Source of the DNA: Terriglobia bacterium
GTDB taxonomy: Bacteria > Acidobacteriota > Terriglobia > JAIQFV01
Direction of reading: 5' to 3'
Assembly (NCBI GenBank): GCA_028716525.1
Contig: JAQUPQ010000003.1
Coordinates: 1-64,000 of the forward strand
DNA length: 64,000 nucleotides
The position numbers were made by a program, and so were the translations under genes. Shown here piece after piece: positions 562 through 54,361 of this stretch (positions are counted from its first letter, which is position 1; the number at the start of each line of letters is the position of its first letter). The notes under the pieces were generated by a model. The model was not told the DNA's origin, did not search any database, and worked only from the letters and a program-made list of their open reading frames with translations.

Positions 562-650
562 AGTGACAAGTGACGAGTGATTAGTGACGAGAAAAAAACG
601 GCCAAACAAAGTGTGTACCTCTTGTCACTTGTCACTCATCACTCGTCACT
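562..650. repeat. Inverted heptad arrays between tRNA-Gly and tRNA-Thr(GGT)
   Basis: Positions 562-592 read as four 7-bp units (AGTGACA, AGTGACG, AGTGATT, AGTGACG) and 621-650 as the opposite orientation (TGTCACT, TGTCACT, CATCACT, CGTCACT). The two halves can fold into an imperfect hairpin with a loop of about 28 nt that fills the spacer: 7 nt after the tRNA-Gly 3' end and 12 nt before the tRNA-Thr 5' end. Could serve as an RNA-processing structure, or be a neutral insertion. Confidence 0.85.
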
Positions 651-656
651 GCCTCC

Positions 657-732
657 TGGAGCGGGAGACGGGACTCGAACCCGCGACCAACAGCTTGGAA
701 GGCTGTGACTCTACCAACTGAGTTACTCCCGC
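657..732 (-). tRNA. tRNA-Gly (anticodon TCC)
   Basis: Minus-strand cloverleaf with acceptor stem GCGGGAG/CTCCCGC, anticodon stem ACAGC/GCTGT around CTTCCAA, T-loop GTTCGAGTCC and encoded CCA. 76 nt. Second from last in the Thr-Tyr-Gly-Thr array. Confidence 0.95.
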
Positions 733-743
733 GGAATAACATA

Positions 744-970
744 AGTGACGAGTGGAGAGTGGCGAGTGACAAGAGAACCATCACACTCTTTTGTCTCACT
801 CTCATCGGTCCCCTGTATCTCGCCGGCCAGATCAAATCTTCATCCTGAAATCTTGTGACGTTTTGGCCCGTCACCTTGCTCCGTGCCCTTCTCGTCACTC
901 ATCACTTGTCACTGCATTTCTCGTCACTCGCCACTAGTCACTCATCACTGCATCACTGGCCACTCATCAC
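744..970. repeat. Inverted heptad arrays between tRNA-Tyr and tRNA-Gly
   Basis: Units AGTGACG, AGTGGAG, AGTGGCG, AGTGACA occupy 744-773. The inverted half at 891-970 is longer and slightly interrupted (CGTCACT, CATCACT, TGTCACT, then CGTCACT, CGCCACT, AGTCACT, CATCACT and more). The long half starts 8 nt after the tRNA-Tyr 3' end. The 117 nt between the halves holds no gene that I can see. Confidence 0.85.
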
Positions 971-977
971 GACTTGC

Positions 978-1066
978 TGGTGGACAGGGGAGGATTCGAA
1001 CCTCCGTAGCTCACAGGGAGCGACAGATTTACAGTCTGTTGCCATTAACCACTCGGCCACCTGTCC
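978..1066 (-). tRNA. tRNA-Tyr (anticodon GTA)
   Basis: Minus-strand type II tRNA of 89 nt with a long variable arm. Acceptor stem GGACAGG/CCTGTCC, D-arm GTGGCCGAGTGGTTAATGGC, anticodon loop CTGTAAA, T-arm GGTTCGAATCC, encoded CCA. Between tRNA-Thr(TGT) and tRNA-Gly. Confidence 0.95.
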
Positions 1067-1348
1067 GTGTTCCATCGCTCGGGGCGAACCACTGCCCGGC
1101 ACAAATCTTCACTGCAAGTACAGAGGGGTAATGAATTCAGGCAAACTTCGAGAATGGTCTTACGGAAGAGGCGCTTTACCCTGTTTCAACTTCAGTTGCA
1201 ATCCAGGCAACTCAGCGCCAAAATGCGAAGCAAATACTCGTCCAAGGCTCAAGAATCAAAACTCGAAAAACCCGTCCGCGATTCAATCAATGCCCAGCCG
1301 ACCCGCTCCGTCCCATCCCCGAAATCTGCTCGTCCCCCTCACCATAGC

Positions 1349-1424
1349 TGGAGCTGGCGAAGGGACTTGAACCCCCGACCCTCTGATTACAAATCAGATG
1401 CTCTACCAACTGAGCTACGCCAGC
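1349..1424 (-). tRNA. tRNA-Thr (anticodon TGT)
   Basis: Minus-strand cloverleaf of 76 nt: acceptor GCTGGCG/CGCCAGC, D-arm TAGCTCAGTTGGTAGAGC, anticodon loop TTTGTAA inside TCTGA/TCAGA, T-arm GGTTCAAGTCC, encoded CCA. First tRNA of the array. The 282-nt spacer down to tRNA-Tyr (1067-1348) shows no heptads and no gene I can support. Confidence 0.95.
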
Positions 1425-1510
1425 GTGGAATTCAAATCCTTACGTCCCAACGTCCGCCCCACGTATTGCCTCTCTACCGACACCATTCCCCCGGTAGAGA
1501 CAAAGCACGT

Positions 1511-1540
1511 AAATTACCATACTCTCTAAATTTTTGTAAA
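1511..1540 (-). promoter_or_regulatory. Candidate promoter for the tRNA-tuf array
   Basis: On the minus strand TTTACA (1540-1535) is followed after 18 nt by TAATTT (1516-1511) in a locally AT-rich stretch about 90 nt upstream of tRNA-Thr(TGT). The match to sigma-70 consensus is partial, so this is a candidate only. Confidence 0.3.
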
Positions 1541-1629
1541 CAGAAATTTTGCGGGATATTTCACGTGTCCAAAAGGCCCTCAAAAACAGCCCAAAACAGC
1601 CCTCTGAACAGCCTTCATCCGTTTCGGGG

Positions 1630-2373
1630 CTACTTGTCCCTCGATGCGCGCTGCCGCACCACCTCATACATCAAAATTCCTGCTGCCACGGAAACATTCA
1701 AGGAAGAAACACCGCCTCCCCGATTCAGAGGCAATGACACCACCCAGTCGCAGTGTTCGCGGACTAAACGGCGCATTCCCTCGCCCTCGCTCCCGAAGAC
1801 CAGCGCCACAGGATCGCGAAAATCCACCTCCGTCCAACGTTTTTCGGCGTCGGCTTCAACACCTACAATCCAGATATTGGCTTGCTTCAGCAGTTCGATC
1901 GCCTGCACCAGGTTCGTTACGCGAACCACGGGCACGTCCTCCAGCGCGCCCGTGGCGGCCTTGGCCACCGTGGAAGTCAATCCCACAGAACGCCGTTCAG
2001 TAATGATGAGGCCCTCCACGCCGGCAGCCGCCGCGGTCCGCAAGACGGCGCCCAGGTTGTGGGGATCTTCCACTTGATCCAGTAGGACGAAGAAAGCCGG
2101 ATCATGCTTCTTTGCAATCAAATCTTCCAGGGATGCATAGCGCTTGGCGCCGCACACGGCCACCACACCCTGGTGCGCTTTTGTCCGAGCCAGCCGGTCC
2201 AGCGCCAAATTTTTTTCAAAGCGCAAGGAGACCGACCTCTCCCGCGCCAATTGCAGAATCTGCTCGAGCCGTTCTGAACGCGCACCGGCGGCAATATGCA
2301 ACCGCTCCACGGGGCGACCCCGGGATCGCAGCAAGCTCTCCACGGCATGAATTCCGAAAACGACGTCGATCAT
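1630..2373 (-). CDS. rlmB: 23S rRNA (guanosine-2'-O-)-methyltransferase RlmB, SpoU/TrmH family
   Basis: 247 residues. The N-terminal substrate-binding part (about 1-80, beginning VFGIHAVESLL) is followed by a SPOUT knot domain. SpoU motif 1 is DQVEDPHNLGAVLRTA (99-114), motif 2 LVFGSEGEGM (191-200) and motif 3 GVSSLNVSVAAGILMYE (221-237). The family transfers a methyl group from S-adenosylmethionine to the ribose of G2251 in 23S rRNA; a TrmH-like paralogue acting on another site cannot be excluded. AGGG lies 4 nt upstream of the ATG. Immediately upstream of the tRNA array on the same strand, with about 200 nt between, so probably a separate transcript. Confidence 0.85.
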   Translation of the reverse strand: MIDVVFGIHAVESLLRSRGRPVERLHIAAGARSERLEQILQLARERSVSLRFEKNLALDRLARTKAHQGVVAVCGAKRYASLEDLIAKKHDPAFFVLLDQVEDPHNLGAVLRTAAAAGVEGLIITERRSVGLTSTVAKAATGALEDVPVVRVTNLVQAIELLKQANIWIVGVEADAEKRWTEVDFRDPVALVFGSEGEGMRRLVREHCDWVVSLPLNRGGGVSSLNVSVAAGILMYEVVRQRASRDK

Positions 2374-2594
2374 TTTTCCCTATCAACCTTTTTGGGTGGG
2401 GCGGTCTCAAACGCCTCATGCTAACATACGCCATGCTTCCACTGAAAATGCTGGCTGTCGTGGAGGTTGGATCATTCGGTTCGTTTGTGCAGAGAAGCCG
2501 CTCAGAAGCACCGGTAGAGCGTAGCCGGGCGTGTGGGTCCCGGCTTTGGGGAGCACACCGCCCCAGGGCAGGATGTCAAACGAAAAAACCTCAA

Positions 2595-2705
2595 TTCTGC
2601 CGCCCTGTCAGGGCGGTCGGATGTTGGAAGATGATGAGAACCGCGCCATTCTTCCTTGGGTCGCTGGCTTCGATAAAACTGAAGCCCTTGACCCAAGGCT
2701 ACCCC
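2595..2705. repeat. Two closely spaced palindromes upstream of the DUF3108-type gene
   Basis: A short palindrome, CCGCCCTG and CAGGGCGG around one base (about 2599-2616), is followed by a larger one whose arms are CCTTGGGTC and GACCCAAGG (about 2658-2702) with further partial pairing of GGCTTC/GAAGCC inside. No gene is visible in 2374-2759 apart from these. Possibly a REP-like element; only one copy is present in this window. Confidence 0.55.
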
Positions 2706-2759
2706 ATTTTGCCGCTCCGCGGCCGGAACCTATTGGAGATATTTGCGGGCCGCAACAAA

Positions 2760-3545
2760 ATGTTTCACTCCTGCACGTTGTTGCTGCTTCTTCTCCTCCT
2801 GCCGCTGGACAAGTTTTTCGCCGCCGAGCATTATCCCTTCTCCGAACATGAAACTCTCGAATATCAGGTGAAGTGGGATCCGCCGGCCTGGATGTTCTTC
2901 ATGCCGGAGATCAACGCCGGGAAAATTGTTTTTAAGGTGGTGTCGCGCTCCATGGAGAAGAACATTCCCATCCACCGCTTCGAAGGACAGGCGGTTTCGA
3001 CGTCTTCGCTCGTCAAAGTGAATGATGCCTACCAATCCACCGCTCGAGGAAATGATCTTTGTTCCGAGTGGACGAAAAAAATCGTCCACGAAGGCAAGCG
3101 CCATCGCGAAGTGGAGCTGCGTGTGGAAGGAGAAAAGAAAGCGGCGCTGGTGACGGAGAAAGATATCGCCGTCAACCCTCCCAAGATCATTCGAAATGAA
3201 ACACTCAAAGACTTTCCATCGTGTGTCAACGACTTGCTGGCGGGCGCCTATCGGGCGCGTTCCTTTCCCCTGAAACCCGGGGAAACCTATCGGCTGATCC
3301 TCACCGACAATGGAAAATACCACGAAGTATCACTCCGGCCTCTCCAAAAAGAAACAATCCAGACACCCGCCGGAACTTTCTCGACGCAAAAGGTGGAAGT
3401 GCTCTCGTTTCTGGGCGGACTGGTGAAACAGAAAGGAACGTTCTACATTTGGTTTGCCGACGACGCCCGCCATCTGCCGGTAAGATTTGATATGAAAGTG
3501 CGGCTCGGCCACATTCACGGATTTCTGACACGCGTCCAGGAATGA
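2760..3545 (+). CDS. Secreted DUF3108-type protein
   Basis: 261 residues from the ATG at 2760. Residues 1-20 (CTLLLLLLLLPLDKFFAAE) are a signal peptide, so the protein is exported. The body has the layout of the DUF3108 family: ETLEYQVKW near the start, then alternating beta strands, GETYRL, TPAGTFSTQKVEV, and a C-terminal FYIWFADDARHLPVRFDMKV. The family is predicted to be a beta-rich envelope protein of unknown role. The frame stays open far upstream through the palindromes and antisense to rlmB, but that part has no protein-like character; no strong ribosome-binding site precedes 2760, so the exact start is uncertain. Confidence 0.65.
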   Translation: MFHSCTLLLLLLLLPLDKFFAAEHYPFSEHETLEYQVKWDPPAWMFFMPEINAGKIVFKVVSRSMEKNIPIHRFEGQAVSTSSLVKVNDAYQSTARGNDLCSEWTKKIVHEGKRHREVELRVEGEKKAALVTEKDIAVNPPKIIRNETLKDFPSCVNDLLAGAYRARSFPLKPGETYRLILTDNGKYHEVSLRPLQKETIQTPAGTFSTQKVEVLSFLGGLVKQKGTFYIWFADDARHLPVRFDMKVRLGHIHGFLTRVQE

Positions 3546-3709
3546 AATGGGTCAGGCTTCATTATTTGTTTTCCCGCTCACCACTGTTGCTCGGCGCGCG
3601 ACCTCCTCAAAAAACCTTCAAACCGGGTGTCTCCTTCAGGGAGAAACCTGGAGTGAAGTCAGCGTCTGTTCAAATATTTCCGGCCTTGAGTGGATGGATA
3701 CTTCGAGGA

Positions 3710-4255
3710 TTATTTCGGGGCAGGCATGAAATCCTGATCCATACCAACATCGGTGGGAGACCTCTTGATCTGACCCAGCAAGGTCATCCTATCAATCTTG
3801 TCCTGCAAGCGCATGATGCCGTAAAGCAGCGCCTCGGGGCGTGGCGGGCACCCGGGGATGTAGACATCCACCGGGACAATACGATCGACTCCCTGGAGCA
3901 CGGCATAGGTTGGAAACGGGCCACCGCAACTCGAACAAGCGCCCATCGAGATGCACCACTTGGGATCCGGCATTTGATCCCAGACGCGGCGAACGACCGG
4001 AGCCATCTTCAACGCCACCGTTCCCGCCACAATCATCAAGTCCGATTGTCGCGGCGAGGGGCGAAACACTTCAGCGCCAAAACGCGCGATATCAAAACGG
4101 CCGGCGCCGGTGGCCATCATTTCAATGGCGCAACACGCCAATCCGAACGTCATGGGCCAGAGGGCCGATTTGCGCGCCCAATTGAAGACCTGGTCCACCG
4201 AGGTGACCAGAAAATTTCGTTCTGAAGGGTTCTCAATAAAAGAAGATGACGTCAT
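3710..4255 (-). CDS. nuoB: NADH-quinone oxidoreductase subunit B
   Basis: 181 residues. Subunit of respiratory complex I that carries the 4Fe-4S cluster N2, the last centre before quinone. Cluster ligands are visible as the adjacent pair C41-C42 in GLACCAIEM, a Cys in GACSSCGG and one in [12 protein letters not shown]. Start chosen at the ATG (4255) with GAGG about 11 nt upstream; the frame could also start at a TTG at 4276. It follows nuoA by 73 nt on the same strand. The other nuo genes are not in the window. Confidence 0.93.
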
Positions 4256-4328
4256 AAAAATGGGGACCTCAATCAAATCAAATTATGCGGCGCGTTCTTC
4301 CCGGGTTTCGATCTTTTCCAAGGACGTC

Positions 4329-4685
4329 CTAGACCCACTCCAGCGCGCCTTGTTTCCACAGCCAGACAAAGCCCACGATCAGGATTCCGAGAAACACCAG
4401 CATTTCCATCAGACCGAACAAACCCAAAACGTCATACCGAATCGCCCACGGGAACAGAAATACAGTTTCCACATCGAACACCACAAACAAGATCGCCACG
4501 ATGTAGTAGCGCACGGTGTAGCGTTCGCGGGGCTGGTAGACCGGATCGACTCCGCACTCGTAGGGACTCAGTTTGGCTTTGTGGGGAACGCTGGGACGCA
4601 CCCATCTCAAAATGGCGAGTGTCACGATGGGAAAGAGAAAAGCCAGCGTGATGAATATTAAGATCGGAATATAATTTCGCGGCAT
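4329..4685 (-). CDS. nuoA: NADH-quinone oxidoreductase subunit A
   Basis: 118 residues with three hydrophobic segments (about 5-25, 62-82, 88-110) and the family signature LSPYECGVDPV followed by RYTVRYYIVAILFVVFDVE. Membrane-arm subunit of proton-pumping complex I. AAAGG lies 8 nt upstream of the ATG. Forms an operon with nuoB. The genes upstream belong to molybdenum-cofactor synthesis, so this nuoAB pair stands apart from a full nuo operon. Confidence 0.93.
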   Translation of the reverse strand: MPRNYIPILIFITLAFLFPIVTLAILRWVRPSVPHKAKLSPYECGVDPVYQPRERYTVRYYIVAILFVVFDVETVFLFPWAIRYDVLGLFGLMEMLVFLGILIVGFVWLWKQGALEWV

Positions 4686-4780
4686 GAAGTCGGCCTTTCT
4701 TGCAGTCTCAAATCAGAAAGAGATTTTAAAACTATCGGCCGGAATTTAGCAAACCCAATTTGGCGCTGTTGCGCTTTCTC

Positions 4781-5272
4781 TCACGAATGTCGGGTCTTTC
4801 CGTGAATCAGATCGAGGGCGTGGGGTAACAGATCAGCCAGTACGTCCAGACACTGTTCGACACCTTGGGGGCTTCCCGGAAGGTTGACAATCAACGTCTC
4901 TTTTCTGACGCCGACCAGAGCTCGGGAGAGAAATGCAAATCGTGTATGGCGGCTCGTTTCGCTCCGCATCAACTCCGCCAGACCGGGGACTTCTTTCTCG
5001 ATGGCCGACCGCGTGGCTTCGGGTGTCACATCCCGAGGGCCGAGTCCGGTCCCGCCGGTGGTCACCACCAAGTCAACGTGCAACTCATCGGCGTAGCGCT
5101 CCAGGATTGCCCTGATGTCCGCGTGCACATCCGCGACGACCTTCGACTCCACGACCTCAAAACCCAGGGCTTGAAGTTTTTCGCGGGCCTTCAATCCCGA
5201 TACGTCCTGGCGGGAGCCTTCGGCCACCGAATCACTCACGGTGACGACCGCACATTGAAAATTGGATGCCAT
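4781..5272 (-). CDS. mog: Molybdopterin adenylyltransferase, MogA/MoaB family
   Basis: 163 residues, full length for the family. Shows TVSDSVAEGSRQDVSG near the N terminus, the pterin/nucleotide-binding TTGGTGLGPRDVTPEA (71-86) and the late NLPGSPQGVEQC. The family adenylates molybdopterin before MoeA inserts molybdate. It lies in a minus-strand group with a response regulator, moaC and moeA, which supports a role in cofactor synthesis. MogA and MoaB are hard to tell apart by eye. Confidence 0.85.
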   Translation of the reverse strand: MASNFQCAVVTVSDSVAEGSRQDVSGLKAREKLQALGFEVVESKVVADVHADIRAILERYADELHVDLVVTTGGTGLGPRDVTPEATRSAIEKEVPGLAELMRSETSRHTRFAFLSRALVGVRKETLIVNLPGSPQGVEQCLDVLADLLPHALDLIHGKTRHS

Positions 5273-5305
5273 AAATTCTTGGTGTCCTCAGGAAATGGAC
5301 CCGAT

Positions 5306-6031
5306 TCAAATTCGCTTGGATTCATCCAAGCGTCGGAGGCCCTCCATCAACAACGATTGAGTCGATTCCCCCACCGAATGCTGTGGAGATACCCCGTCAA
5401 AATCAATTTGAAATTGTCCTTCAGTCCAGGTCAGCGAGTCAAAAACCACCGCAGGTCCGCGTTCGCTTCCCCGCTCCGCGTCATAGATTTCCCCGTCACG
5501 AAAATACAGGACCGCCGGGTCGCCTGTCGATTGAACCTTCAGGGCGCAGGTTTTCTGGCCGAGGCCCAGAGCTTGAATCAAATCCACCGGGCTCATGTCC
5601 GCCAGTCTGCCGGATATAACGCCGTCTTTGACCGTCAGGGAATCGAGCCGAACTTGCGGAAGGCGGGACAAAATAGATCTCAGACGCTGCTTGACCTCCG
5701 CAGCGAAGAAGGGCTTCTGAATCCACTCGTCGGGCGTTCCTTCCAGCGTCTTGACCTCGTGGTCCATTTCATCGCGCGTCGCGAGCAACAGGTACGGGGT
5801 GCCCCGGTGCGTCGGCGATTCTTTCATTTTGCGAAACAGTTGGACGCCGTTCAGGATGGGCATGCTGAAATCTGCCACGACCAAATCAGGGGCAGCTTTT
5901 TGAATCTTCAGCAGGGCATCCGCTCCATCCGTCGCAGTGATGGTTTCGCAGCCCAGCTCGCGGGCCACTGAAATCAGAATCCGCAGTATCGACGAATTAT
6001 CATCCGCCAATAAGACTTTGACCGGAGTCAT
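5306..6031 (-). CDS. Response regulator: receiver domain plus PATAN/DUF4388 domain
   Basis: 241 residues. Receiver domain at 1-118 with acidic pair D10/D11, phosphoacceptor D54 (VVADFSMPILNG) and K106 in WIQKPFF. The C-terminal half (about 125-240) looks like DUF4388/PATAN: GRLADMSPVDLIQALGLGQKT, LYFRDGEIYDAERG, and a late TWTEGQFQIDF. Such proteins lack a DNA-binding domain and are thought to work by protein contact. AAAGGA precedes the ATG. Sits between mog and moaC with short gaps, an unexpected partner for cofactor genes. No cognate kinase is adjacent. Confidence 0.8.
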   Translation of the reverse strand: MTPVKVLLADDNSSILRILISVARELGCETITATDGADALLKIQKAAPDLVVADFSMPILNGVQLFRKMKESPTHRGTPYLLLATRDEMDHEVKTLEGTPDEWIQKPFFAAEVKQRLRSILSRLPQVRLDSLTVKDGVISGRLADMSPVDLIQALGLGQKTCALKVQSTGDPAVLYFRDGEIYDAERGSERGPAVVFDSLTWTEGQFQIDFDGVSPQHSVGESTQSLLMEGLRRLDESKRI

Positions 6032-6106
6032 GTCGCGGATCCTTTCCCTCCCGAAACTCCAATCCTGCTACGGTCTCGTTTCAGACTCCCTCCCGGTCGC
6101 CCCGCT

Positions 6107-6595
6107 TCAACGAGTGCGCGTGGATTTACGCCGGTAGGTTCCACTGCGGCCGCCGCGCTTCTCTACGAGATAGACTTCTGTGATTTCCATTCCCCGGTCC
6201 ATGGCTTTGCACATATCATAGATCGTCAGGGCCGCAACCGATGCGGCCGTCAGGGCCTCCATCTCCACTCCCGTCTCGCCTTTGGTGGTCACTGAACTTT
6301 CTACCTCGATTCCGGTTTTCACCAAACGGCATTCCACATCCACGTGAGTCAGCAACAAGGGATGGCATAGGGGGATCAAATCTGCAGTCCGTTTGGCGGC
6401 CGCGATGCCGGCCACGCGCGCCACTTCCAGCGGATTTCCTTTGGGATTCTTCAGGTGACGAATTGCCGAGAGCGCCTTGGAGGAGATTTTGATAAACCCA
6501 TGCGCTTTTGCTGTTCGCAGGGTCGCGGGTTTGCCGCTTACATCCACCATTCGGGCCCGGCCGGACCGATCGTAATGTGAGAGTTTGCGAGGCAT
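6107..6595 (-). CDS. moaC: Cyclic pyranopterin monophosphate synthase accessory protein MoaC
   Basis: 162 residues. Contains [16 protein letters not shown], the conserved [15 protein letters not shown] (with C77-H78) and [23 protein letters not shown] (D127, K130), all hallmarks of MoaC, which with MoaA converts GTP to cyclic pyranopterin monophosphate in molybdenum-cofactor synthesis. 28 nt downstream of moeA on the same strand. moaA is not in the window. Confidence 0.95.
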
Positions 6596-6623
6596 AAGAC
6601 TTTCGGAAGAGATCCGCCCTTTT

Positions 6624-7880: not shown

Positions 7881-7976
7881 GGCAGCAGATTGGACCAGAG
7901 CGGCACAATCATACCATTCTTTTCGATCAGGAAAAGTTTGAGAAAGGGACGAGGCGCGGCACACGCGCTTTCGCGG

Positions 7977-9287: not shown

Positions 9288-9615
9288 TGCGATGGGCCTC
9301 GATTTCTTTGGAAGGCGCGCCCAACCGCCCACCACGTCCGAATAGAACGCTTTCAAGGTGGGTCGTGAGGGTGCGTCAATCAGACCGCAAAAACCCGGCC
9401 GAAGACCAGATCACACACGGCTTCCTAAAAAGGATCTGCACCGTGTTGATTCGGGAATAGACCCGGGAATTCCAAAGAGGAGCGGTAGAAAAAACCTCGA
9501 TCCGCCTGAGAGCTTTCGGGATGGCGCCTCACCTGACCTTCCCCAAGAAACCCGCCATGATTACAGCGCCGGCGGAAGAGTCATCGGCAAGGCCCATTCC
9601 CCGCCGGCATAAGAT
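9288..9615. other. Non-coding interval between trxA and purA
   Basis: 328 nt. An 84-codon open frame on the plus strand (9358-9612) has no ribosome-binding site and a proline/arginine-rich sequence with no family resemblance, so I do not call it. No tRNA, repeat or known riboswitch is evident. It probably holds the purA promoter. Confidence 0.4.
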
Positions 9616-17677: not shown

Positions 17678-17842
17678 AAATTCCAAATTCCAAGCACCAA
17701 AGTCCAAATAAGTTCCAGAATCCAAGTTCCAATAAGCTGAGCCGAAATTTGAGTAAAACCGCTTGGCAAAAATAGGTCCTGTTTGGATTTTGGAATTTGG
17801 AATTTATTTGGAATTTGGCGTTTGGGATTTGGAATTTATTAA
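17678..17842. repeat. Inverted AATTCCA heptad arrays downstream of ftsK
   Basis: Left half 17678-17733: units AAATTCC, AAATTCC, AAGCACC, AAAGTCC, an 11-nt unit AAATAAGTTCC, then AGAATCC, AAGTTCC. Right half 17781-17842 in the opposite orientation: GGATTTT, GGAATTT, an 11-nt unit GGAATTTATTT, GGAATTT, GGCGTTT, GGGATTT, GGAATTT. The 11-nt departure from the 7-nt period occurs in both halves. Otherwise the 346 nt between ftsK and the next gene hold only a promoter near 17930. Confidence 0.85.
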
Positions 17843-29908: not shown

Positions 29909-31238
29909 CGACGATCCCACCACGCTGCAGCTGCTGCACGAATCCCTGGCCGGCGAGGGACATGCGGTCACCACCTCGACCAGCGGCGAGGAAGCCTTAA
30001 AACTCGGGCACGAGCAGGCGTTCGACGTCGTCATCAGCGACATCAAGATGGGTCTGGGAGTGAGTGGACTGGACGTGTTGAAGAGTTTTCGACAGATCAA
30101 TCCCCAGGCCGACGTGATTCTTATGACCGCGTTCGGCTCGATGGAAACCGCCATCGAAGCGGTCAAGGCCGGGGCCTACGACTACATTTCCAAACCTTTT
30201 CGCTTGGAAGAAATCCTCCTGATGCTGGAACGCCTGGTGGAGCGGCAACGGCTGCAAAGTGAAAACATAAACCTGCGGCATCAACTGGAAGAACGCTTTT
30301 CACTCTCTTCCATCGTGGGACGTTCTCCGCAGATGGTCGAGGTCTTCAAGAAAATCGGCTATGTCGCCGATAGCCGCTCGACCGTACTGATTACCGGGGA
30401 AAGCGGAACCGGCAAGGAACTGGTCGCCAAGGCGATCCATTACAACAGCGGTCGGGCTTCCAAAAAATTCCTCGCCATCAACTGCGGCGCGTTAACGGAG
30501 TCATTGCTGGAATCGGAGTTGTTCGGACACGTCCGCGGCGCCTTTACCGGCGCCATGACAAACAAGAAAGGGATCTTTGAAGCGGCGGAAGGCGGGACGG
30601 TCTTCCTGGATGAAGTATCGGAGATGTCTACGGCGCTGCAGGTGAAATTGCTCCGGGTGCTGGACGAACAGGAAGTTCGTCCGGTGGGCGGATCCAACTC
30701 GATTCATTTCGATGTCCGCATTATTGCCGCCAGCAACAAGGACCTCCAGGAGACCGTGGAACAAGGAAAATTCCGGCACGATCTCTTGTACCGGCTGAAC
30801 GTCATCAACATTCACTTGCCGCCGCTCCGCGAACGCCGCGACGATATTCCCCTGTTGATCGGACACTTCCTGAAAAAATTCAGTCAACCGTCTTCCTCTC
30901 CTTTGACTCTGGCCGACGATGCCCTCGATGTCTTGACCCATTATTCCTGGCCCGGCAATGTCCGAGAATTGGAAAATACCATCGAATCCTCTGTGGCCTT
31001 GACTCGCACCGGTGTGATTACCGCCAAGGAATTGCCCGCCCGCCTCAGAGAACAGCCTTCCACGGCCCCCACCGAAAACATCTTCTCCGATATGCCTTCA
31101 CTGGATGAGCTTGAACGCCGCTATCTGCTGCGCGCCTTGGAGGCTGCCGGAAACAACAAATCCCGTGCCGCTGAAATTCTGGGCGTCAATCGAAAAACCT
31201 TGTACCGCATGGCGGAACGGTATGGAATTAAGATCTGA
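29877..31238 (+). CDS. Sigma-54-dependent response regulator, NtrC family
   Basis: 453 residues from ATG 29877; the frame continues upstream antisense-free inside the kinase but the receiver domain starts here (NILVVDDDPTT). D55 is the phosphoacceptor and K106 the conserved lysine. AAA+ domain: Walker A GESGTGKE (174-181), the sigma-54 contact loop GAFTGA (221-226), Walker B TVFLDEVSEM. Fis-type helix-turn-helix at the C terminus (NNKSRAAEILGVNRKTLYR). The intact GAFTGA means it should activate sigma-54 promoters. Its TGA stop merges into a heptad array. Confidence 0.93.
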   Translation: MPTPLNILVVDDDPTTLQLLHESLAGEGHAVTTSTSGEEALKLGHEQAFDVVISDIKMGLGVSGLDVLKSFRQINPQADVILMTAFGSMETAIEAVKAGAYDYISKPFRLEEILLMLERLVERQRLQSENINLRHQLEERFSLSSIVGRSPQMVEVFKKIGYVADSRSTVLITGESGTGKELVAKAIHYNSGRASKKFLAINCGALTESLLESELFGHVRGAFTGAMTNKKGIFEAAEGGTVFLDEVSEMSTALQVKLLRVLDEQEVRPVGGSNSIHFDVRIIAASNKDLQETVEQGKFRHDLLYRLNVINIHLPPLRERRDDIPLLIGHFLKKFSQPSSSPLTLADDALDVLTHYSWPGNVRELENTIESSVALTRTGVITAKELPARLREQPSTAPTENIFSDMPSLDELERRYLLRALEAAGNNKSRAAEILGVNRKTLYRMAERYGIKI

Positions 31239-31288
31239 GTGACGAGTGGCGAGGAGACAGTGGTTAGTGACGAGTGATTAGTGGCGAG
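31238..31288. repeat. Heptad array at the ntrC-type stop codon (left half)
   Basis: Seven units on a strict 7-bp register: AGTGACG, AGTGGCG, AGGAGAC, AGTGGTT, AGTGACG, AGTGATT, AGTGGCG. The first base is the last base of the regulator's TGA stop. The first four units (28 bp) recur as a perfect inverted repeat at 31749-31776. Confidence 0.9.
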
Positions 31289-31322
31289 AAAGGAATGCTG
31301 CGGCTAGTTGACTCTTAGCGTG

Positions 31323-31703
31323 TTATGCAGCGCGCACATTGAGTTTCCGACGCAACCCATTCAGCATTTTGCGCACTTCTTCCAAAATTGCAGTTGCTAA
31401 TACTGCTTGTTGAGGTGAACAAAGACTGAGGTCCTGGGCGAGCATTAATTGGGTATCAAGTTCTGCAGCCGAACCCTGAGCATGGGAAATGAATTGAATG
31501 AATTCTTTCGTTGTGTGTCGTGCCTGCCCCTCTGCGATGTTCGAAGGGACAGAAACCGCAGCACGACGCAACTGCGAAACCAGGCCAAATCTTTCATCTT
31601 GTGGAAACCCCCGCGTCAACTCGTAAATCTCTTTCACCAACAGCATGGCCTTTTGCCAGACCAGTAGATCCCGATAACTCTTCGGCCCGTCGGCATTCTC
31701 CAT
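31323..31703 (-). CDS. Four-helix-bundle protein, S23 / 23S-rRNA intervening-sequence family
   Basis: 126 residues. SYRDLLVWQKAMLLVKEIY, then RFGLVSQLRRAAVSVPSNIAEG and FIQFISHAQGSAAELDTQL are the signature of the four-helix-bundle family (TIGR02436), first seen in open frames inside 23S rRNA intervening sequences of spirochaetes; structurally related to the Avd accessory protein of diversity-generating retroelements. The start at 31703 has AGAGGAG 5 nt upstream. Here it is not in an rRNA gene but alone in the loop of a heptad inverted repeat. Function unknown; RNA or nucleic-acid binding is suspected for the family. Confidence 0.88.
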   Translation of the reverse strand: MENADGPKSYRDLLVWQKAMLLVKEIYELTRGFPQDERFGLVSQLRRAAVSVPSNIAEGQARHTTKEFIQFISHAQGSAAELDTQLMLAQDLSLCSPQQAVLATAILEEVRKMLNGLRRKLNVRAA

Positions 31704-31727
31704 AGAATCTCCTCTGGGGGGTGTTCT

Positions 31728-31853
31728 GGTCACTTTTCACTTATCAATAACCACTGTCTCCTCGCCACTCGTCACTAACCACTGTCTCCTCGGCACTGAT
31801 TTCTCGTCACCATCCACTCATCACTAACCACTAATCACTTCTCACTAACCACT
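31728..31853. repeat. Heptad array at the purH 3' end (right half)
   Basis: Eighteen consecutive 7-bp units with no slip in register, mostly of the form NNNCACT (AACCACT five times, CGTCACT, CGCCACT, CATCACT) and with GTCTCCT twice. Ends 5 nt from the purH stop codon. Contains the complement of the 28-bp block at 31238-31265. Confidence 0.9.
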
Positions 31854-31858
31854 GCTCT

Positions 31859-45153: not shown

Positions 45154-45179
45154 TGGGGATGTTGATTCGGAGCGCAAAT

Positions 45180-45619: not shown

Positions 45620-45753
45620 GGATGGCTTCCTTTCTTGGTGTCCATTGAGCCCCCGATTCTAATCACCCCTGGCCGGGCTTTCAAGAGGAAAGCGTCATCG
45701 AAGACCCGATCCGCAAAAACAGCCGCCGTGGATCGGGCGCGTTCATCAAAACT

Positions 45754-46671: not shown

Positions 46672-46801
46672 AAGATCGACAGAATTATTTCATTCTCGAC
46701 TCGGCAGACGGGTTGAGAAAAGCATAACCGCTTTCGAAAAGCGGGATGGCCCCTCGGGCCGGTTCATCCCAAGGGTTCTGCTCTCTTGTACAATCTCGTG
46801 C

Positions 46802-46963
46802 TCATTGGGATTTTGAAGAGCGCTTCTTTTTTCGGTGGTATCCACCCCTGGGTCCAAGCCGTCCTTCGCGCCCCATGTTCATGGCCTCGGCAACCGCCTG
46901 TTTTTCCGGAACTCCTTCATGCCGGAGTTTTTTGATTTTTTTCGAAACGCGATCGTTTGCCAT
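46802..46963 (-). CDS. Small basic conserved-looking protein (53 aa)
   Basis: From ATG 46963, with AGGA about 8 nt upstream, the frame reads MANDRVSKKIKKLRHEGVPE, then KQAVAEAMNMGREGRLG, PRGGYHRKKKRSSKSQ and TGA at 46802-46804. KLRxEGxPxKQAVAxAxxM followed by GRLGPRGGY is a pattern I associate with short conserved bacterial proteins related to DUF6496. It is very basic. Function unknown. It fills the gap between the BtuF-like gene and the receptor. Confidence 0.55.
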   Translation of the reverse strand: MANDRVSKKIKKLRHEGVPEKQAVAEAMNMGREGRLGPRGGYHRKKKRSSKSQ

Positions 46964-47028
46964 AATTTTATCCTATCTCGCAAGAGGTTCTTGTTAACGT
47001 CTCAGGCATTCTCCCCCGCTTCCCAAGC

Positions 47029-49347: not shown

Positions 49348-49353
49348 GTTTTT

Positions 49354-49372
49354 CTCCTTTGCCCTCGAAAGG
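49354..49372 (-). promoter_or_regulatory. Hairpin that can mask the btuB ribosome-binding site
   Basis: On the minus strand CCTTT (49372-49368) can pair with AAAGG (49360-49356), the core of the AAAGGAG ribosome-binding site. A second small stem, CCGTTC/GAACGG, lies just upstream (49373-49388). This fits a translational expression platform for the adjacent riboswitch, by inference. Confidence 0.4.
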
Positions 49373-49399
49373 CCGTTCGAATGAACGGTGTTTTAGTTT

Positions 49400-49558
49400 T
49401 GTCACCGGCCCGATCTCCTGACTTGAGGGCGCCGCAGTTGTTTTCGCCTTCCCGCCGGAAAACTTTGGAGCCGGCAGTGACGAAAACCGGAATTGAACCC
49501 TCATACAGTTGCGGGGCAGTCGCCGCTTTTCACGGCGTTCCCGAACCGATGACGTGAT
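49400..49558 (-). promoter_or_regulatory. Cobalamin riboswitch upstream of btuB
   Basis: The minus strand shows GGGAACGCCGTGAAAAGCGG, then GACTGCCCCGCAACTGT and, at the 3' end, the B12 box AAGTCAGGAGATCGGGCC (about 49404-49425). These are the conserved parts of the cobalamin aptamer. The 3' end is about 50 nt from the start codon. Confidence 0.93.
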
Positions 49559-49560
49559 TT

Positions 49561-49801
49561 CAGACATCAGACATCAGACCCAAGACCAAAGACCCAAGAC
49601 CCGAAACTTAAAACTGGAACCATAGAAGAGCAGCTTTCCGATAAAACTTTTGGATGATTCGATTGATGAGATTTGAGATGGCACTTATTTCCTTCAGTCA
49701 AGAATCAAGAATTGTCCTCAAGGATCGACTCTTAATATCTGCTCTTAGTCTTGGGTCCTGGGTCTTGTGTCTTGGGTCTCTCTTCCCGGGTCTTGGTTCT
49801 C
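49561..49801. repeat. Inverted AGACCCA heptad arrays between btuB and the DUF71 gene
   Basis: Left half 49561-49616: CAGACAT, CAGACAT, CAGACCC, AAGACCA, AAGACCC, AAGACCC, GAAACTT, AAAACTG. Right half 49746-49801 in the opposite orientation: TAGTCTT, GGGTCCT, GGGTCTT, GTGTCTT, GGGTCTC, TCTTCCC, GGGTCTT, GGTTCTC. Strict 7-bp register. The right half ends 4 nt from the stop codon of the DUF71 gene, and the left half abuts the btuB riboswitch. Confidence 0.88.
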
Positions 49802-49805
49802 TCTC

Positions 49806-50477
49806 TCATTCTTCCGGAATCAAATCGCAGTAATAGAATCGTTCATCCCGCAAGGTGATTTCACCCTTGCGCCAGGCGATGCGTTTCTGGAGGTTGGGGC
49901 CGGCATATACAAAGGAGTGAAACTCTCCATTCTCTCCGCACGGATCCACGCCTTCCGGAAGATCTGACAAGAAAGCCGCATCGAATTCGCGACCGACAAA
50001 CGTTCCATCCAGTGCCTTCGAATCGACACAGCTGATTACGGTGTGGAACCCGGCGGCGAAAAACGATTCCGCCAGATCGTGTGTGTTCCGTTTCCAGATG
50101 GGGAATATGCCGCGCATCCCGATTTTTGCAAGGTTGGTTTCACGGTACTGGCGCAAGTCTTCCAGAAAGATATCGCCGAAGGCCACCGACTGTATTCCTC
50201 TTTGCGAGTATTTTTCGAGCAGCGCTTGCATTTTGGATTCATATTCCCGGTTGTCGGCTTGGGGAGTGATCCAGACGATTTCCAAAGGAATTCCCAGGGA
50301 GGCCGCTTGTTGCTCCAACAGCGTTCGCCGGACCCCATGCATGCTGATGCGGTCGTATTTCTCTGTGACGGTCGTAATGAGAGCGGCAATCTCGTACCGG
50401 CCGGAGCGTTGCAACTCAAAAAGGGAATAGGCGCTGTCCTTCCCACCGCTCCATGATAAGAGAATTTTTTCCTTCAC
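49806..50477 (-). CDS. DUF71/COG2102 PP-loop ATPase (Dph6-like), B12-associated
   Basis: 223 residues. N-terminal PP-loop LSWSGGKDSAYSL (SGGKDS), a middle ESKMQALLEKYSQRGI and a C-terminal VDPCGENGEFHSFVY, the family signature. In eukaryotes and archaea Dph6 amidates diphthine; a bacterial branch has been predicted from gene neighbourhood to act in B12 salvage (de Crecy-Lagard and co-workers). Its position directly after btuD in a riboswitch-controlled operon agrees with that prediction. Cytoplasmic. Confidence 0.87.
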   Translation of the reverse strand: MKEKILLSWSGGKDSAYSLFELQRSGRYEIAALITTVTEKYDRISMHGVRRTLLEQQAASLGIPLEIVWITPQADNREYESKMQALLEKYSQRGIQSVAFGDIFLEDLRQYRETNLAKIGMRGIFPIWKRNTHDLAESFFAAGFHTVISCVDSKALDGTFVGREFDAAFLSDLPEGVDPCGENGEFHSFVYAGPNLQKRIAWRKGEITLRDERFYYCDLIPEE

Positions 50478-50525
50478 ATTGTCCTCCGATCACCCGCAAC
50501 ATCTCGCCAATGCCTCGGCGAATCG

Positions 50526-51398
50526 CTAATCAACGCTCTCGTGATGCGAACTCGCCGATCGATCGCTTTTTCTCAAAGGAGTAATTCGACACGCGCCGGT
50601 CACAGGATTTTGATCGACCAATAATTCTGAATCAAACACCTGGTGCAACCGCTCTTCTGTCATGACCTCGGCGGGTGAACCGAACGCCAGGGAATTGCCG
50701 TTCTTCAGCAACAGAACCTTGTGAGCAAACTCGGAGGCCAAATTCAGCTCGTGCGTTACCATGACGACCAAAAGGCCTTGTTCTCGAGTCAGGCGGTCCA
50801 CCAGCTCCAACAACTCAATTTGAAACGCCACATCGAGGTTGATCGTGGGTTCATCCAACAACAGCAAACGTGGTTGTTGAGCCAGCGCGCGCGCCAGGAT
50901 GACCCGTTGGCGCTCACCGCCTGAGAGTTCGTTCATCCAGCGACGCTCGAAAGGCGCGGCGCGAGTCATCTGCAGCGCCTGATGAACGATTTCGAGGTCT
51001 TCCGCACCGGCCAATTGCAACCCCTCCACAAAGGGATGCCGCGCCATGAGGCAATATTCCAAGACCGTCATCGGGAAATGCAGGGCGCTTTCCTGTGCCA
51101 CGACGGCAACCTGTCGAGCCCTTTGACGGCCTTTCATGGAGTGAATAGAAACGCCGTCCAGGTGCACGACGCCGGCATCCGGTTTCGAATAACCGCTGAT
51201 AATTTTCAGGAGAGTTGATTTTCCGGAACCGTTGGGTCCCAAAATCCCGGTCAAGGTGCCTGTAGTCCCTTCAAAGGAAACCGGAGACAGCCGAAAATTT
51301 CCCTGTCGCAACGCAACCTCTCGAACCTCCAACCGAAGATCGCCGGGTGGATTCGAGGGTGGGGTCATTCCAACGGGATTTTTAGTTGCCGAATTCAT
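50526..51398 (-). CDS. btuD: ABC transporter ATPase for cobalamin/iron-complex uptake
   Basis: 290 residues from ATG 51398, which overlaps the btuC stop as ATGA. Walker A LGPNGSGKSTLL, Q-loop VVAQES, signature LSGGERQRV, Walker B LLLLDEPTINLD and H-loop VTHEL. The frame continues upstream inside btuC, but that part is a shadow. Powers the BtuFC importer. Whether the substrate is cobalamin rather than an iron chelate rests on the riboswitch. Confidence 0.9.
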   Translation of the reverse strand: MNSATKNPVGMTPPSNPPGDLRLEVREVALRQGNFRLSPVSFEGTTGTLTGILGPNGSGKSTLLKIISGYSKPDAGVVHLDGVSIHSMKGRQRARQVAVVAQESALHFPMTVLEYCLMARHPFVEGLQLAGAEDLEIVHQALQMTRAAPFERRWMNELSGGERQRVILARALAQQPRLLLLDEPTINLDVAFQIELLELVDRLTREQGLLVVMVTHELNLASEFAHKVLLLKNGNSLAFGSPAEVMTEERLHQVFDSELLVDQNPVTGACRITPLRKSDRSASSHHESVD

Positions 51399-52411
51399 TG
51401 CTCCACCCGGTCTCTTCGCAATAAATAAATGAATACCGGAGCACCGGCGAGTGCCGTAATGGCCCCCACAGGCAATTCGATGGGAGCGGCCACACTTCGG
51501 GCGATCAAGTCTGCGGTCACGGTCAGCATAGCGCCCACCAAGGCGCTCGCCGGAATCAACAAACGGTAATCGTTTCCGAAAAGAAGCCGCACGAGGTGCG
51601 GCACAATCAATCCCACAAAACCGATGGATCCGCTGACGGAAACAGCCAACCCCGTCAGCAGCGCCGATAACACAAACACACCTCGCCGCACCCATTCCAC
51701 GTTCACTCCCAGATGCGTGGCTTCACGATCGCCGATCAGCATGACATTGAGGCTGCCCGCCAGACGGTAAATCAAAAACACGCTCGCCAATGCTGCGATC
51801 GCGACCCACTTCAAATAGGGAACATGCACGCCGGAAAAATCGCCCATTAACCAGAATGTCGCTTCCCGTAATTGATGACCGCTCATGAAGGGTTCGAGAA
51901 AGATGATAATCGAAGAGAAAAACGAAGCCGCGATGATGCCGGCCAGAATCAAGGTGTGGGGAGAGGTCTTTCCGCTGCGGCTCCCCAGCGAATACACCAG
52001 AAAAATGGTGATCAAACCTCCGATGAAAGCAGCGATGGGAAGAGGTAGAGGAATGAATCTCGAAAAGGCAATCGACAAGATGGCCGCAAGCGCGGCGCCG
52101 CTCGAGACTCCCAGCACATGCGGATCGGCCAAAGGATTTCGCAACAAGGCTTGGAAGCCCGCACCTGCGACCGCCAGCGACATTCCCACCAGCATGGCCA
52201 GGTAAATCCGCGGCAATCGCAATCCAAAAAGAATGACCGCGACGTCTGAAGGCAGGGGTTGATGAGGAAAGAACCTTCCCAAGACCAGGCTGACGACCTG
52301 CATGAAGGGAATGCGAGTGCTGCCGATGGACAAGGCCAAAGCGCCGGTCACCATCAGCAACACGACCAGTAACAGGAGCGCCGAAGCTATTTTTTTCTTA
52401 GTAAGCACCAT
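51395..52411 (-). CDS. btuC: FecCD-family ABC permease, cobalamin type
   Basis: 338 residues, about ten membrane segments. RLPRIYLAMLVGMSLAVAGAGFQ, NPLADPHVLGVSSGAALAA and GFVGLIVPHLVRLLFGNDYR are hallmarks of the BtuC/FecCD family. Forms the inner-membrane channel of the B12 importer. Follows btuF after an intergenic repeat of about 200 nt and overlaps btuD. Confidence 0.92.
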   Translation of the reverse strand: MVLTKKKIASALLLLVVLLMVTGALALSIGSTRIPFMQVVSLVLGRFFPHQPLPSDVAVILFGLRLPRIYLAMLVGMSLAVAGAGFQALLRNPLADPHVLGVSSGAALAAILSIAFSRFIPLPLPIAAFIGGLITIFLVYSLGSRSGKTSPHTLILAGIIAASFFSSIIIFLEPFMSGHQLREATFWLMGDFSGVHVPYLKWVAIAALASVFLIYRLAGSLNVMLIGDREATHLGVNVEWVRRGVFVLSALLTGLAVSVSGSIGFVGLIVPHLVRLLFGNDYRLLIPASALVGAMLTVTADLIARSVAAPIELPVGAITALAGAPVFIYLLRRDRVEQ

Positions 52412-52451
52412 TAACTCGCTTGATTCGGAAATCCAAACCGGAACAATTCAC

Positions 52452-52592
52452 CGCAGAGACGCAGAGAACGCAGAGCAAACGCAGAGACAAATGACGGATC
52501 AAAAACAAGCACTCGCGTGTCTTGAATAATTCCAATATTGAACATCCACAAGATCTCTGCGCAATCCCCGCGACCTCTGCGTCTCTGCGGTG
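52452..52592. repeat. Inverted CGCAGAG repeats between btuF and btuC
   Basis: CGCAGAG occurs four times at 52452-52486 (spacings 8, 9 and 11 nt) and the complement CTCTGCG three times at 52554-52592. The halves face each other around about 67 nt. The right half begins 17 nt after the btuF stop. Similar text-like CACAGAGAC repeats are common in other genomes; the period here is looser than in the other families. Confidence 0.75.
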
Positions 52593-52608
52593 AGTTCTTC
52601 CCGACTCC

Positions 52609-53583
52609 TCATTTCCCTTCCGGATGCAAAATCTTCGAAATCTCCTCCAAGGCATCAAACAATCGCGGGCTGGGGTGATTGGCGTCATCCTGGACCTCAT
52701 ATACCTTTTGTGTGCGCACCGCCGTCGTTGAGTCCCAACCCGCCCACTGTTTCAATTGCTTCGATACCGGCAGTCCTTCATTGCTGCGAGGTATCAAAAT
52801 GACTTCGGGATCGCGCCGCACGATTTCTTCCAACGACATCTGGGCCCAATCCTGTTTGAGATCGGCGCTGATGGATTGTCCTCCGGCCAAAGTGATCAGG
52901 CTGGTGATAAAAGAATTTTTTCCCGGCACGCTGATGGGGTGGTACCACACCAGATACAGAACCCGCGGCCGGGGATGGCCTGCCACTCGACGGACCACGG
53001 CGTCGCGACGCGCCTCCAGCGATCGTACGACTTCGACCGCTTGCCCGCTCGTGCCCAGGAGCGCGCCCAGATCCTTCAAAGAACTCAAGACATCGTCCAA
53101 GCTGCGGGCGTGAACCCCGTACAACGGAATGTGAAAGCGCGCCAGCTGATCCGCGACCTCAATCTTGTTGATCTCCGGGGTTCCGATCACCAAATCCGGC
53201 CGCAGCGAAACAATCATCTCCACATTCGGATTAATGACTCCACCGATACTCGGCTTCCGGCGAACTTGCGGGGGATAATCACAGTAGTCCGTGCGCGCGA
53301 TCACGCGGTCACCGGCTCCCAACGCATAAAGCGTTTCCGTGACACTGGGGGCCAGAGAGACAATGCGGCGCGGGTTGGCAGGAACTTCCACTCTTCTTCC
53401 AGTCTCGTCGATGACCCAGCGGTTGGAAAAAGCGATTCCAATTGTTGCAGGTGTCAGAAGAAGCCAGAAAACAGAGATCAGAAGCCAGAAACGAGTGGCC
53501 CGTGGCCAATGAACAGGCGTCCGATTACACCTCACCTTCGTGTCATCGATTCTATGGACTTCACCAGTTCTGAAGAAATTCAA
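52609..53583 (-). CDS. btuF: Periplasmic cobalamin-binding protein of the BtuFCD importer
   Basis: 324 residues. Hydrophobic segment 31-52 (FWLLISVFWLLLTPATIGI) is a signal peptide or anchor; the mature BtuF fold starts RRIVSLAPSVTETLYALGAG, with ARTDYCDYPPQV and DLVIGTPEI. Binds B12 and hands it to BtuC. The first 20-odd residues look unlike protein and may not be translated; start uncertain. Bases coding about residues 26-43 form a 7-bp repeat. Preceded by a cobalamin riboswitch and terminator. Confidence 0.87.
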   Translation of the reverse strand: MNFFRTGEVHRIDDTKVRCNRTPVHWPRATRFWLLISVFWLLLTPATIGIAFSNRWVIDETGRRVEVPANPRRIVSLAPSVTETLYALGAGDRVIARTDYCDYPPQVRRKPSIGGVINPNVEMIVSLRPDLVIGTPEINKIEVADQLARFHIPLYGVHARSLDDVLSSLKDLGALLGTSGQAVEVVRSLEARRDAVVRRVAGHPRPRVLYLVWYHPISVPGKNSFITSLITLAGGQSISADLKQDWAQMSLEEIVRRDPEVILIPRSNEGLPVSKQLKQWAGWDSTTAVRTQKVYEVQDDANHPSPRLFDALEEISKILHPEGK

Positions 53584-53628
53584 TTAAGAATTCACCTCTT
53601 GCTTGCAGCCAGCGCAAATTCGTTCGCA

Positions 53629-53670
53629 CAAACAAAAACCCCGTGCGTCTTCCTTGGAAAGCGCACGGGG
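53629..53670 (-). terminator. Terminator in the btuF leader (riboswitch expression platform)
   Basis: On the minus strand a perfect 9-bp stem CCCCGTGCG/CGCACGGGG is followed by TTTTTGTTTG, 46 nt before the btuF ATG and about 130 nt after the aptamer. This is the layout of transcriptional control by the riboswitch. Confidence 0.8.
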
Positions 53671-53765
53671 CAAAAACTTGTCCACGGGCTCCTTTTTCGC
53701 GAAGAGCGCTACGTTTGACGATTAAGACCCGGACGCCAGACTGCCCACCCAAACCTCTTCGTTTC

Positions 53766-53793
53766 GGGTCTCGGGTCTTTGGTCCTGGATCTT
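53766..53793. repeat. Single AGACCCA-family heptad array inside the btuF leader
   Basis: GGGTCTC, GGGTCTT, TGGTCCT, GGATCTT on a 7-bp register, directly 3' of the aptamer on the minus strand. A lone AAGACCCG at about 53724-53731 could pair with it. Same family as at 49561-49801, next to the other B12 riboswitch. Confidence 0.65.
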
Positions 53794-53799
53794 CTATTG

Positions 53800-53960
53800 A
53801 TTGTCGGCAGATTTCCTGACTGGGTCACTTCGTCCAGCGTTCTCGCCTTCCCAATCCTGGAAAGAATCAGTGGCTTTGAACTTGGGATCGTGACGTCACA
53901 GTGGCGCGACCGTCGCCGAATTTCACGGCGTTCCCTTTTGGCTCCTTCAATTCGGAGACC
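53800..53960 (-). promoter_or_regulatory. Cobalamin riboswitch upstream of btuFCD
   Basis: Minus strand: GGGAACGCCGTGAAATTCGG, then CGCCACTGTGACGTCACG, ATTGGGAAGGCGAGAAC and the B12 box CAGTCAGGAAATCTGCC (53803-53822). The conserved aptamer parts match those of the btuB riboswitch. Confidence 0.92.
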
Positions 53961-54036
53961 GGCAATCGTTGAGAAAGATCAATGAGAAAATTCAAGCTAA
54001 CAGAATCTGCGGGGTGATGTCAAACGGATTAAGAGC

Positions 54037-54361
54037 AGTGGGGAGTGGCAAGTGACTAGTGTTCAGTGATGAGTGATCAGTGAGCAGTGACGAGTGATCA
54101 GTGACAAGTGAACAGTGATCTAACAGGCTGCTGTCAGGCGGGATTCAAGATCTTTGCCTGTGCGGGTTCGATTTTTAGAAATTGATTTTCAGGGCAGCGT
54201 TCTTGCGGCCACCCCATTGGCGTAGCAAGCGCCAACTCATTTTGCGCAAGAAATGGCACAACTCTTCACTGATCACTCGTCACTGCTCACTGATCACTCA
54301 TCACTCGTCACTTGTCACTGAACACTGATCCCTCGCCACTCGTCACTAACCACTGATTACT
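54037..54361. repeat. Inverted AGTGACG heptad arrays after the ADOP permease
   Basis: Left half 54037-54120: twelve units on a strict register, including AGTGGCA, AGTGACT, AGTGATG, AGTGATC, AGTGACG, AGTGACA. Right half 54264-54361: fourteen units (GATCACT, CGTCACT, GCTCACT, CATCACT, TGTCACT, CGCCACT, AACCACT and others). The right half runs into the permease stop codon (54357-54359). The 143 nt between the halves have no recognised gene. Confidence 0.9.

Follow-up and report, generated by a model that had tools for sequence, protein, structure and literature searches.

Inverted heptad arrays at gene 3′ ends in a Terriglobia bacterium: probable ends of a small mobile element carrying an S23 gene

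Introduction

A stretch of 64,000 nt from a Terriglobia bacterium of the Acidobacteriota (assembly GCA_028716525.1, contig JAQUPQ010000003.1, positions 1 to 64,000), hereafter the window, contains arrays of degenerate 7-bp units (heptads) that are paired in opposite orientation, belong to several seemingly unrelated sequence families and lie close to the 3′ ends of protein and tRNA genes. What gives different sequences the same period, the same inverted layout and the same placement? We propose that a small bacterial mobile element, which in its complete form carries a single gene, S23 (PF05635, TIGR02436), has the inverted heptad arrays as its two ends, and that pairs without an open reading frame (ORF) are derivatives or remnants of it, a reading to which we assign a probability of about three in four. 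An earlier note on this DNA, made from the sequence alone, had suspected one process behind the families, and the link to S23 elements, together with a core common to the heptads, agrees with that suspicion. The two processes it had suggested, replication slippage at terminator hairpins and a selected RNA structure for 3′ ends, are weighed in the Discussion.

S23 genes between inverted arrays

The arrays that the earlier note had correctly placed at the NtrC-type gene and at purH enclose an ORF that it had overlooked (Table 1). The product of this gene, a four-helix-bundle protein of the kind encoded in 23S rRNA intervening sequences, matches PF05635 with an E value of 1.3e-39 (135.1 bits against a cut-off of 33.8) and TIGR02436 with 127.2 bits against a cut-off of 24. 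The gene is located outside any 23S or 16S rRNA gene, and no 23S words were found in the S23 loci fetched up to that check. The source genome contains ten PF05635 matches, nine of which lie between inverted arrays when inspected by eye, each with a heptad of its own (CAGGTGT, AGACCCA, TCAGCTA, AATTCCA, CAAGCTN, ATTTGGN, AATCCGA and others); the exception (L011) is the weakest match to the family, and five of the nine loci pass a strict detector.

The same arrangement is found across the bacteria. A scan of GTDB genomes provided 80 S23 loci, 77 of them with enough flanking sequence, which by their record titles represent about 15 phyla: Acidobacteriota, Bacteroidota, Planctomycetota, Pseudomonadota, Desulfobacterota, Chloroflexota, Verrucomicrobiota, Bacillota, Fibrobacterota, Hydrogenedentota, Gemmatimonadota, Actinomycetota, Patescibacteria, Cloacimonadota and Kiritimatiellota. 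A period-7 array is present on both sides of the gene in 60 of the 77 loci and an inverted-complementary pair in 58, compared with 3 of 541 random 315-bp intervals from the same loci and 0-5 for other periods. In independent sets, the gene had an inverted pair around it at 16 of 25 loci sampled within the class and at 16 of 26 sampled within the phylum, with a null of 0/167. The unit length is mostly, not always, 7, since inverted arrays of period 8 flank 7 of the 26 S23 genes in the phylum sample (L100-L127). Heptads are also visible at S23 genes of cyanobacterial plasmids, about half of which pass the strict pair test because the arrays are short there. In 400 kb from four S23-free genomes of the phylum no inverted pair was found, whereas the density in the source genome is 1.85 per 100 kb (P = 0.0006). 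That S23 genes are located between inverted heptads is close to certain. Their tree, which is poorly resolved, mixes phyla, with 37 label changes against a minimum of 15 and 58.8 after shuffling, and no match was obtained among INPHARED phages with the window protein as query.

Filled and empty insertion sites

Related cyanobacterial plasmids allow occupied and unoccupied versions of the same junction to be compared. In Tolypothrix and Aulosira, nothing interrupts the gene pair that flanks the S23 gene of Trichormus, the identity being about 98%: the empty site reads AAAAAGTAATTAACAAATAA and the filled site AAAAAGTAAT-[element]-GTAATTAACAAATAA or, in another excerpt of the same junction, AAAAAGTAATTAAC when empty and AAAAAGTAAT[element]GTAATTAAC when filled. 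The BLAST alignments overlap by 5 bp at this site, and the duplicated GTAAT includes the upstream gene's stop codon. Brasilonema carries an ORF-less heptad hairpin at the same position and Nostoc C052 a truncated S23 gene, and in two Nostoc plasmids the S23 gene occupies different, neighbouring junctions, each plasmid providing the empty site of the other. In two further comparisons (L278 with L280 and L281; L275 with L279), the element is located a few codons ahead of the native stop and brings a stop codon of its own; elsewhere, as between guaB and guaA in both Methyloversatilis and Thiobacillus, the left array begins a few nucleotides from the upstream stop codon. Plasmid alignments of 50 kb, checked for further insertions or deletions, contained only the one S23 site. 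Judged from such comparisons, the S23-heptad unit is likely to be mobile.

A candidate empty site in an Acidobacteriota genus (G017 against G009 and G031) was rejected as not clean, other sequence lying in between. Between cas6 and cas4, Anabaena sp. 90 (L211) carries an S23 element and Dolichospermum (L220) a different inverted-repeat insert, GTAGGTTGGGTTG...CAACCCAACCTAC. In an Akkermansia-binned metagenome-assembled genome (L130, about 2400-2900), the S23 element is apparently situated within, and not at the end of, the coding sequence of a PglX-like DNA methyltransferase, according to a reading of the translation only.

A common core and ORF-less pairs

When the left-arm heptads of 61 loci are aligned by rotation, a common core N-Y-A-G-K-N-N emerges (A 0.82, G 0.95), with an information content of 4.09 bits compared with 2.53 +/- 0.07 for column-shuffled heptads. 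Because they have this core in common, heptad families that look unrelated can have one cause, although AATTCCA units conform to it only poorly. For 15 of the 19 ORF-less pairs compared with S23-coding elements of the source genome itself, the heptad of one such element is a closer match than was obtained with any draw of foreign S23 heptads, and several ORF-less copies are built on one skeleton, with identical phase jumps and with TTTTGTTTG preceding the right arm.

Two loci have very long runs of perfect or near-perfect units, suggesting recent expansion by slippage: L169 has about 24 copies of TCAGTTC on both arms, and in L205, from Vreelandella sedimenti, CTCACAA is repeated well over 50 times on one arm. 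A further idea, that a period of 7 (1 mod 3) makes the array a universal cassette with stops in all frames, was discarded, the proportions being 33% against 26 +/- 6 for column-shuffled units and, for the pairs of the source genome, 12% against 21%.

Period and placement across the genome

The genome-wide analysis covered 2.02 Mb of the 4.2-Mb genome. Genes were called with a simple codon-usage caller of our own and with ARAGORN, and single gene-to-array distances may be off because the caller is simple. Depending on the threshold, period 7 yielded 36 inverted pairs or 39 that do not overlap, whereas the counts for periods 4-6 and 8-13 were 0-3; inverted heptad pairs are not a product of chance and are specific to period 7. 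Almost all arrays (136 of 144) are intergenic. The anchoring at 3′ ends described in the earlier note extends to the genome: in spacers between tandem genes, pairs closer to the 3′ end outnumber those closer to the 5′ end by 21 to 4, and where at least 60 bp of spacer are free the 3′ end is the nearer one for 15 of 18 pairs (p = 0.0075). Divergent spacers, bounded by two 5′ ends, make up 22% of intergenic bases but hold only 2 of 38 pairs.

Arrays of the window

Arrays were located by Tandem Repeats Finder (TRF), a period-7 detector and direct reading of the sequence, and distances were taken from tRNA and ORF coordinates. The window has six to seven inverted pairs (Table 1), with TRF and the detector in agreement with the families and locations originally described, and the distances to 3′ ends given at that time hold as well. 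For the first two pairs, these searches gave the narrower limits 562-588/624-650 and about 744-774/889-970. Polarity is constant: AGTGACG ... CGTCACT, AATTCCA ... TTGGAAT, AGACCCA ... TGGGTCT and CGCAGAG ... CTCTGCG. Three pairs fold as single DNA strands far better than shuffled sequences. The looser CGCAGAG pair is genuinely an inverted repeat, but with units 8-11 nt apart it does not count as a strict heptad array.

Table 1. Heptad arrays and the S23 gene in the 64,000-nt window
Feature	Position	Strand	Remarks
Left arm, AGTGACG heptads, tRNA-Thr/tRNA-Gly spacer	558-592		Partner 615-653; DNA hairpin z -5.3
Right arm of the 558-592 pair	615-653		7 nt to tRNA-Gly 3′ end (657)
Left arm, AGTGACG heptads, upstream side of tRNA-Gly	740-778		TRF, detector
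Right arm of the 740-778 pair	889-970		8 nt to tRNA-Tyr 3′ end (978)
Left arm, AATTCCA heptads	17678-17735		68 nt past ftsK stop
Right arm, TTGGAAT heptads	17782-17837		DNA hairpin with left arm 17678-17735, z -7.2
Left end of S23-coding element	31237-31288		Overlaps stop codon of NtrC-type gene (31236-31238)
S23 (23S rRNA intervening-sequence four-helix-bundle) gene	31323-31733	-	PF05635, TIGR02436 matches
Right end of S23-coding element	31744-31857		2-5 nt from purH 3′ end (31859)
Left arm, AGACCCA heptads	49560-49615		Overlaps 5′ side of cobalamin-riboswitch match (49390-49598, minus)
Right arm, TGGGTCT heptads	49744-49801		About 4 nt from DUF71 (Diphthami_syn_2) 3′ end (49806)
Left arm, CGCAGAG units spaced 8-11 nt	52452-52491		Looser relative of heptad arrays
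Right arm, CTCTGCG units	52553-52592		17 nt from btuF 3′ end (52609)
Left arm, AGTGACG/CAGTGAT heptads	54036-54120		TRF, detector
Right arm of the 54036-54120 pair	54261-54364		Overlaps ADOP stop codon (54357); DNA hairpin with left arm, z -12.8

Two cobalamin riboswitches (Rfam RF00174), at 53789-53978 (99.6 bits) and on the minus strand at 49390-49598 (76.4 bits), directly adjoin heptad pairs. A short AGACCC/GGGTCT hairpin remnant at 53724-53793, beside the riboswitch, is apparently a decayed pair, and its right half resembles an unpaired array.

Relation to known systems

Earlier work had already described inverted heptads close to ORF ends in Xanthomonas, as well as heptads within the Coxiella intervening sequence (IVS). 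In the 23S rRNA of Coxiella burnetii, the IVS comprises an S23 ORF, an inverted-repeat stem and two or three GACAGAT heptamers just upstream of the ORF, and has been called a selfish element; a Xanthomonas member of the S23 family is reported as a pentameric ring (PMC4990558). The IVS and the window element at 31237-31857 are alike in having one S23 ORF inside inverted repeats. They differ in that the copies described here lie at the 3′ ends of protein and tRNA genes and not in rRNA and, compared with Coxiella, in having heptads on both sides, usually in three or more units, and commonly ORF-less copies.

The earlier note knew of no description of this 3′-anchored inverted form, yet in 2015 Rehm et al. 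had counted inverted GGGAATC heptad pairs in two xanthomonads, 70 in one and 75 in the other, the repeats lying at a mean distance of 28 nt from the 5′-neighbouring ORF (PMC4692102). These authors also found related heptads, GGGGA(C/T)T, in Nostoc, drew a link to G-quadruplexes, saw no association with mobile elements, did not mention S23 and left the repeats without a function (PMC4692102). The period of 7, the inverted pairing, the intergenic location near ORF ends and the rarity between divergent genes are all found here too. In filamentous cyanobacteria, the heptameric short tandemly repeated repetitive (STRR) sequences are 7-bp repeats that form hairpins near gene ends (PMC2670836), and the S23 genes of cyanobacterial plasmids sit in such arrays, but STRR sequences have been reported solely as repeats, with neither ends nor a gene attributed to them. 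Among open-licence papers, none was found that joins an S23 gene to heptad pairs outside rRNA, and both the S23 link and the interpretation of the pairs as mobile elements appear to be new.

Small dispersed intergenic hairpins with ORF-less copies also recall repetitive extragenic palindromic (REP) sequences with their REP-associated tyrosine transposases (RAYTs) and miniature inverted-repeat transposable elements (MITEs); the heptad elements, however, contain no transposase, and the inspected Y1 transposase genes of this genome have non-heptad repeats of their own. The Y1 (RAYT-like) genes at C1:169287, C2:180934, C3:86206, C5:74792 and C6:54445 of the source genome (G000) are accompanied by distinct palindromic REP-like repeats, for example GGGGACAGACACC and AGTCCCGC..GCGGGACT, which form another small-repeat system of this genome, separate from the heptads. 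The Avd protein of diversity-generating retroelements has a related four-helix-bundle fold, and weak matches to PF22296 and NF033474 were obtained. The window protein scores 34.7 against 80 bits for NF033474, however, and no reverse transcriptase (RT) gene is found nearby, nor any in several S23-bearing genomes. In the Protein Data Bank (PDB), sequence searches recovered only 2gsc, the S23 protein XCC0516 of X. campestris, and 2rld as relatives of S23.

Discussion

If the arrays are the ends of a mobile element, the hairpin or the heptad array would be the site acted on, as DNA, and could be bound by the S23 pentamer; copies would enter DNA next to gene ends, perhaps helped by replication or by an unlinked enzyme, and 23S rRNA IVSs would be rare copies that landed in rRNA helices and are removed from the transcript by RNase III. 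Stem mismatches, read in the transcribed sense, comprise 59 G.U and 69 A.C at the S23 loci and 45 and 63 in the pairs of the source genome; a role as DNA, whether as a hairpin or as a repeated binding site, fits these counts better because a stem selected as RNA should show more G.U than A.C. A bolder proposal, to which we give less than even odds, is that S23 itself is the mobility protein of a transposable element of many phyla without recognisable transposase, recombinase or RT, that it recognises YAGK heptad hairpins and places copies at gene ends, and that the Xanthomonas GGGAATC heptads, the cyanobacterial STRR sequences and the rRNA IVSs are its traces.

Several observations weigh against the mobile-element interpretation. 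To our knowledge, no transposase, nuclease or RT domain has been recognised in S23, and no movement has been seen. A detectable inverted pair is missing at 19 of the 77 S23 loci, and 46 of the 136 intergenic arrays have no partner within 1 kb. A general target-site duplication is not apparent: flanking 5-mers agree at 15 of 59 sites against 9.4 expected, the inverted control also giving 15, they agree in 3 of 39 pairs of the source genome, and the 5-bp duplication is clear at one site only. Between phyla, heptad type does not significantly follow S23 phylogeny (Mantel r 0.047, p 0.19), and specific recognition beyond the common core is therefore unproven. Strong concerted evolution of the two arms was considered and dropped, the excess of matching within elements being only modest. 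Lastly, 90% of the Xanthomonas heptads lie between the same ORFs in two species (PMC4692102), which speaks for low mobility there.

Among the rival explanations, that of units which are mobile through an unlinked enzyme (a DDE, HUH or other transposase, or an RT), with S23 as passenger or accessory, is unlikely on the present evidence but the most serious. It would account for the absence of a recognised catalytic domain in S23, the source genome has ten Y1 transposase genes, and the S23 fold is akin to that of Avd, the PF22296 and NF033474 matches being below cut-off. It would, however, need one enzyme family in about 15 phyla. An RT acting in trans, suggested by the likeness to Avd, was rejected on account of the absence of PF00078 from the source genome, from the complete genome G160 with its 10 S23 copies and from four more S23 genomes; Y1 or RAYT enzymes were likewise set aside as mobilisers, none of the five inspected Y1 genes being flanked by heptads and all five having their own REP-like repeats. 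A host-beneficial operon device, in which S23 and the hairpin act for example as a translational coupler or mRNA-processing module and not as a selfish element, is improbable: S23 ORFs are mostly intact and conserved and insertions mostly co-directional, just past the stop of an upstream operon gene, but no neighbour genes are common to the loci (guaB/guaA, sdhA/sdhB, sufA/sufB, cmr2/cmr3, nrdA/nrdB and others), presence is scattered among relatives and single genomes hold several independent copies.

The two processes suggested in the earlier note fare no better. Hairpins that selection maintains as RNA structures at the 3′ ends of transcripts, whether terminators, stabilisers or processing sites, would explain the 3′-end preference and the very stable folds of the window pairs, and a terminator role has been suggested for a cyanobacterial STRR hairpin (PMC2670836); this explanation has little probability in our judgement, as the stems lack an excess of G.U over A.C, the arms also flank S23 genes of about 350 nt and are hence far apart, and both the absence of pairs at orthologous ends in relatives and their lack in S23-free genomes are left unexplained. 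Still less credible is the suggestion that replication slippage and template switching at hairpins produced the arrays as non-mobile by-products and that S23 genes merely happen to sit in such places. Slippage may lengthen arrays, since unit number varies, as in the perfect runs of L169 and L205 and in Coxiella strains with two or three units (PMC4990558), but the enclosure of S23 genes across phyla is not what a by-product would give, what distinguishes filled from empty plasmid sites is the entire unit with its gene, and the reuse of S23 heptads by ORF-less pairs is unaccounted for.

We know of no function assigned to S23 proteins since their discovery in rRNA intervening sequences, and reports of heptad arrays in Xanthomonas and cyanobacteria have so far offered no explanation for them. 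Should the arrays prove to be the ends of S23 elements, the puzzle of the repeats and that of the protein family become a single, testable system. Many bacterial genes now annotated as ‘four helix bundle protein’ would then be genes of mobile elements, and the S23-heptad unit would be a DNA element that moves by means other than any known transposase or reverse transcriptase.

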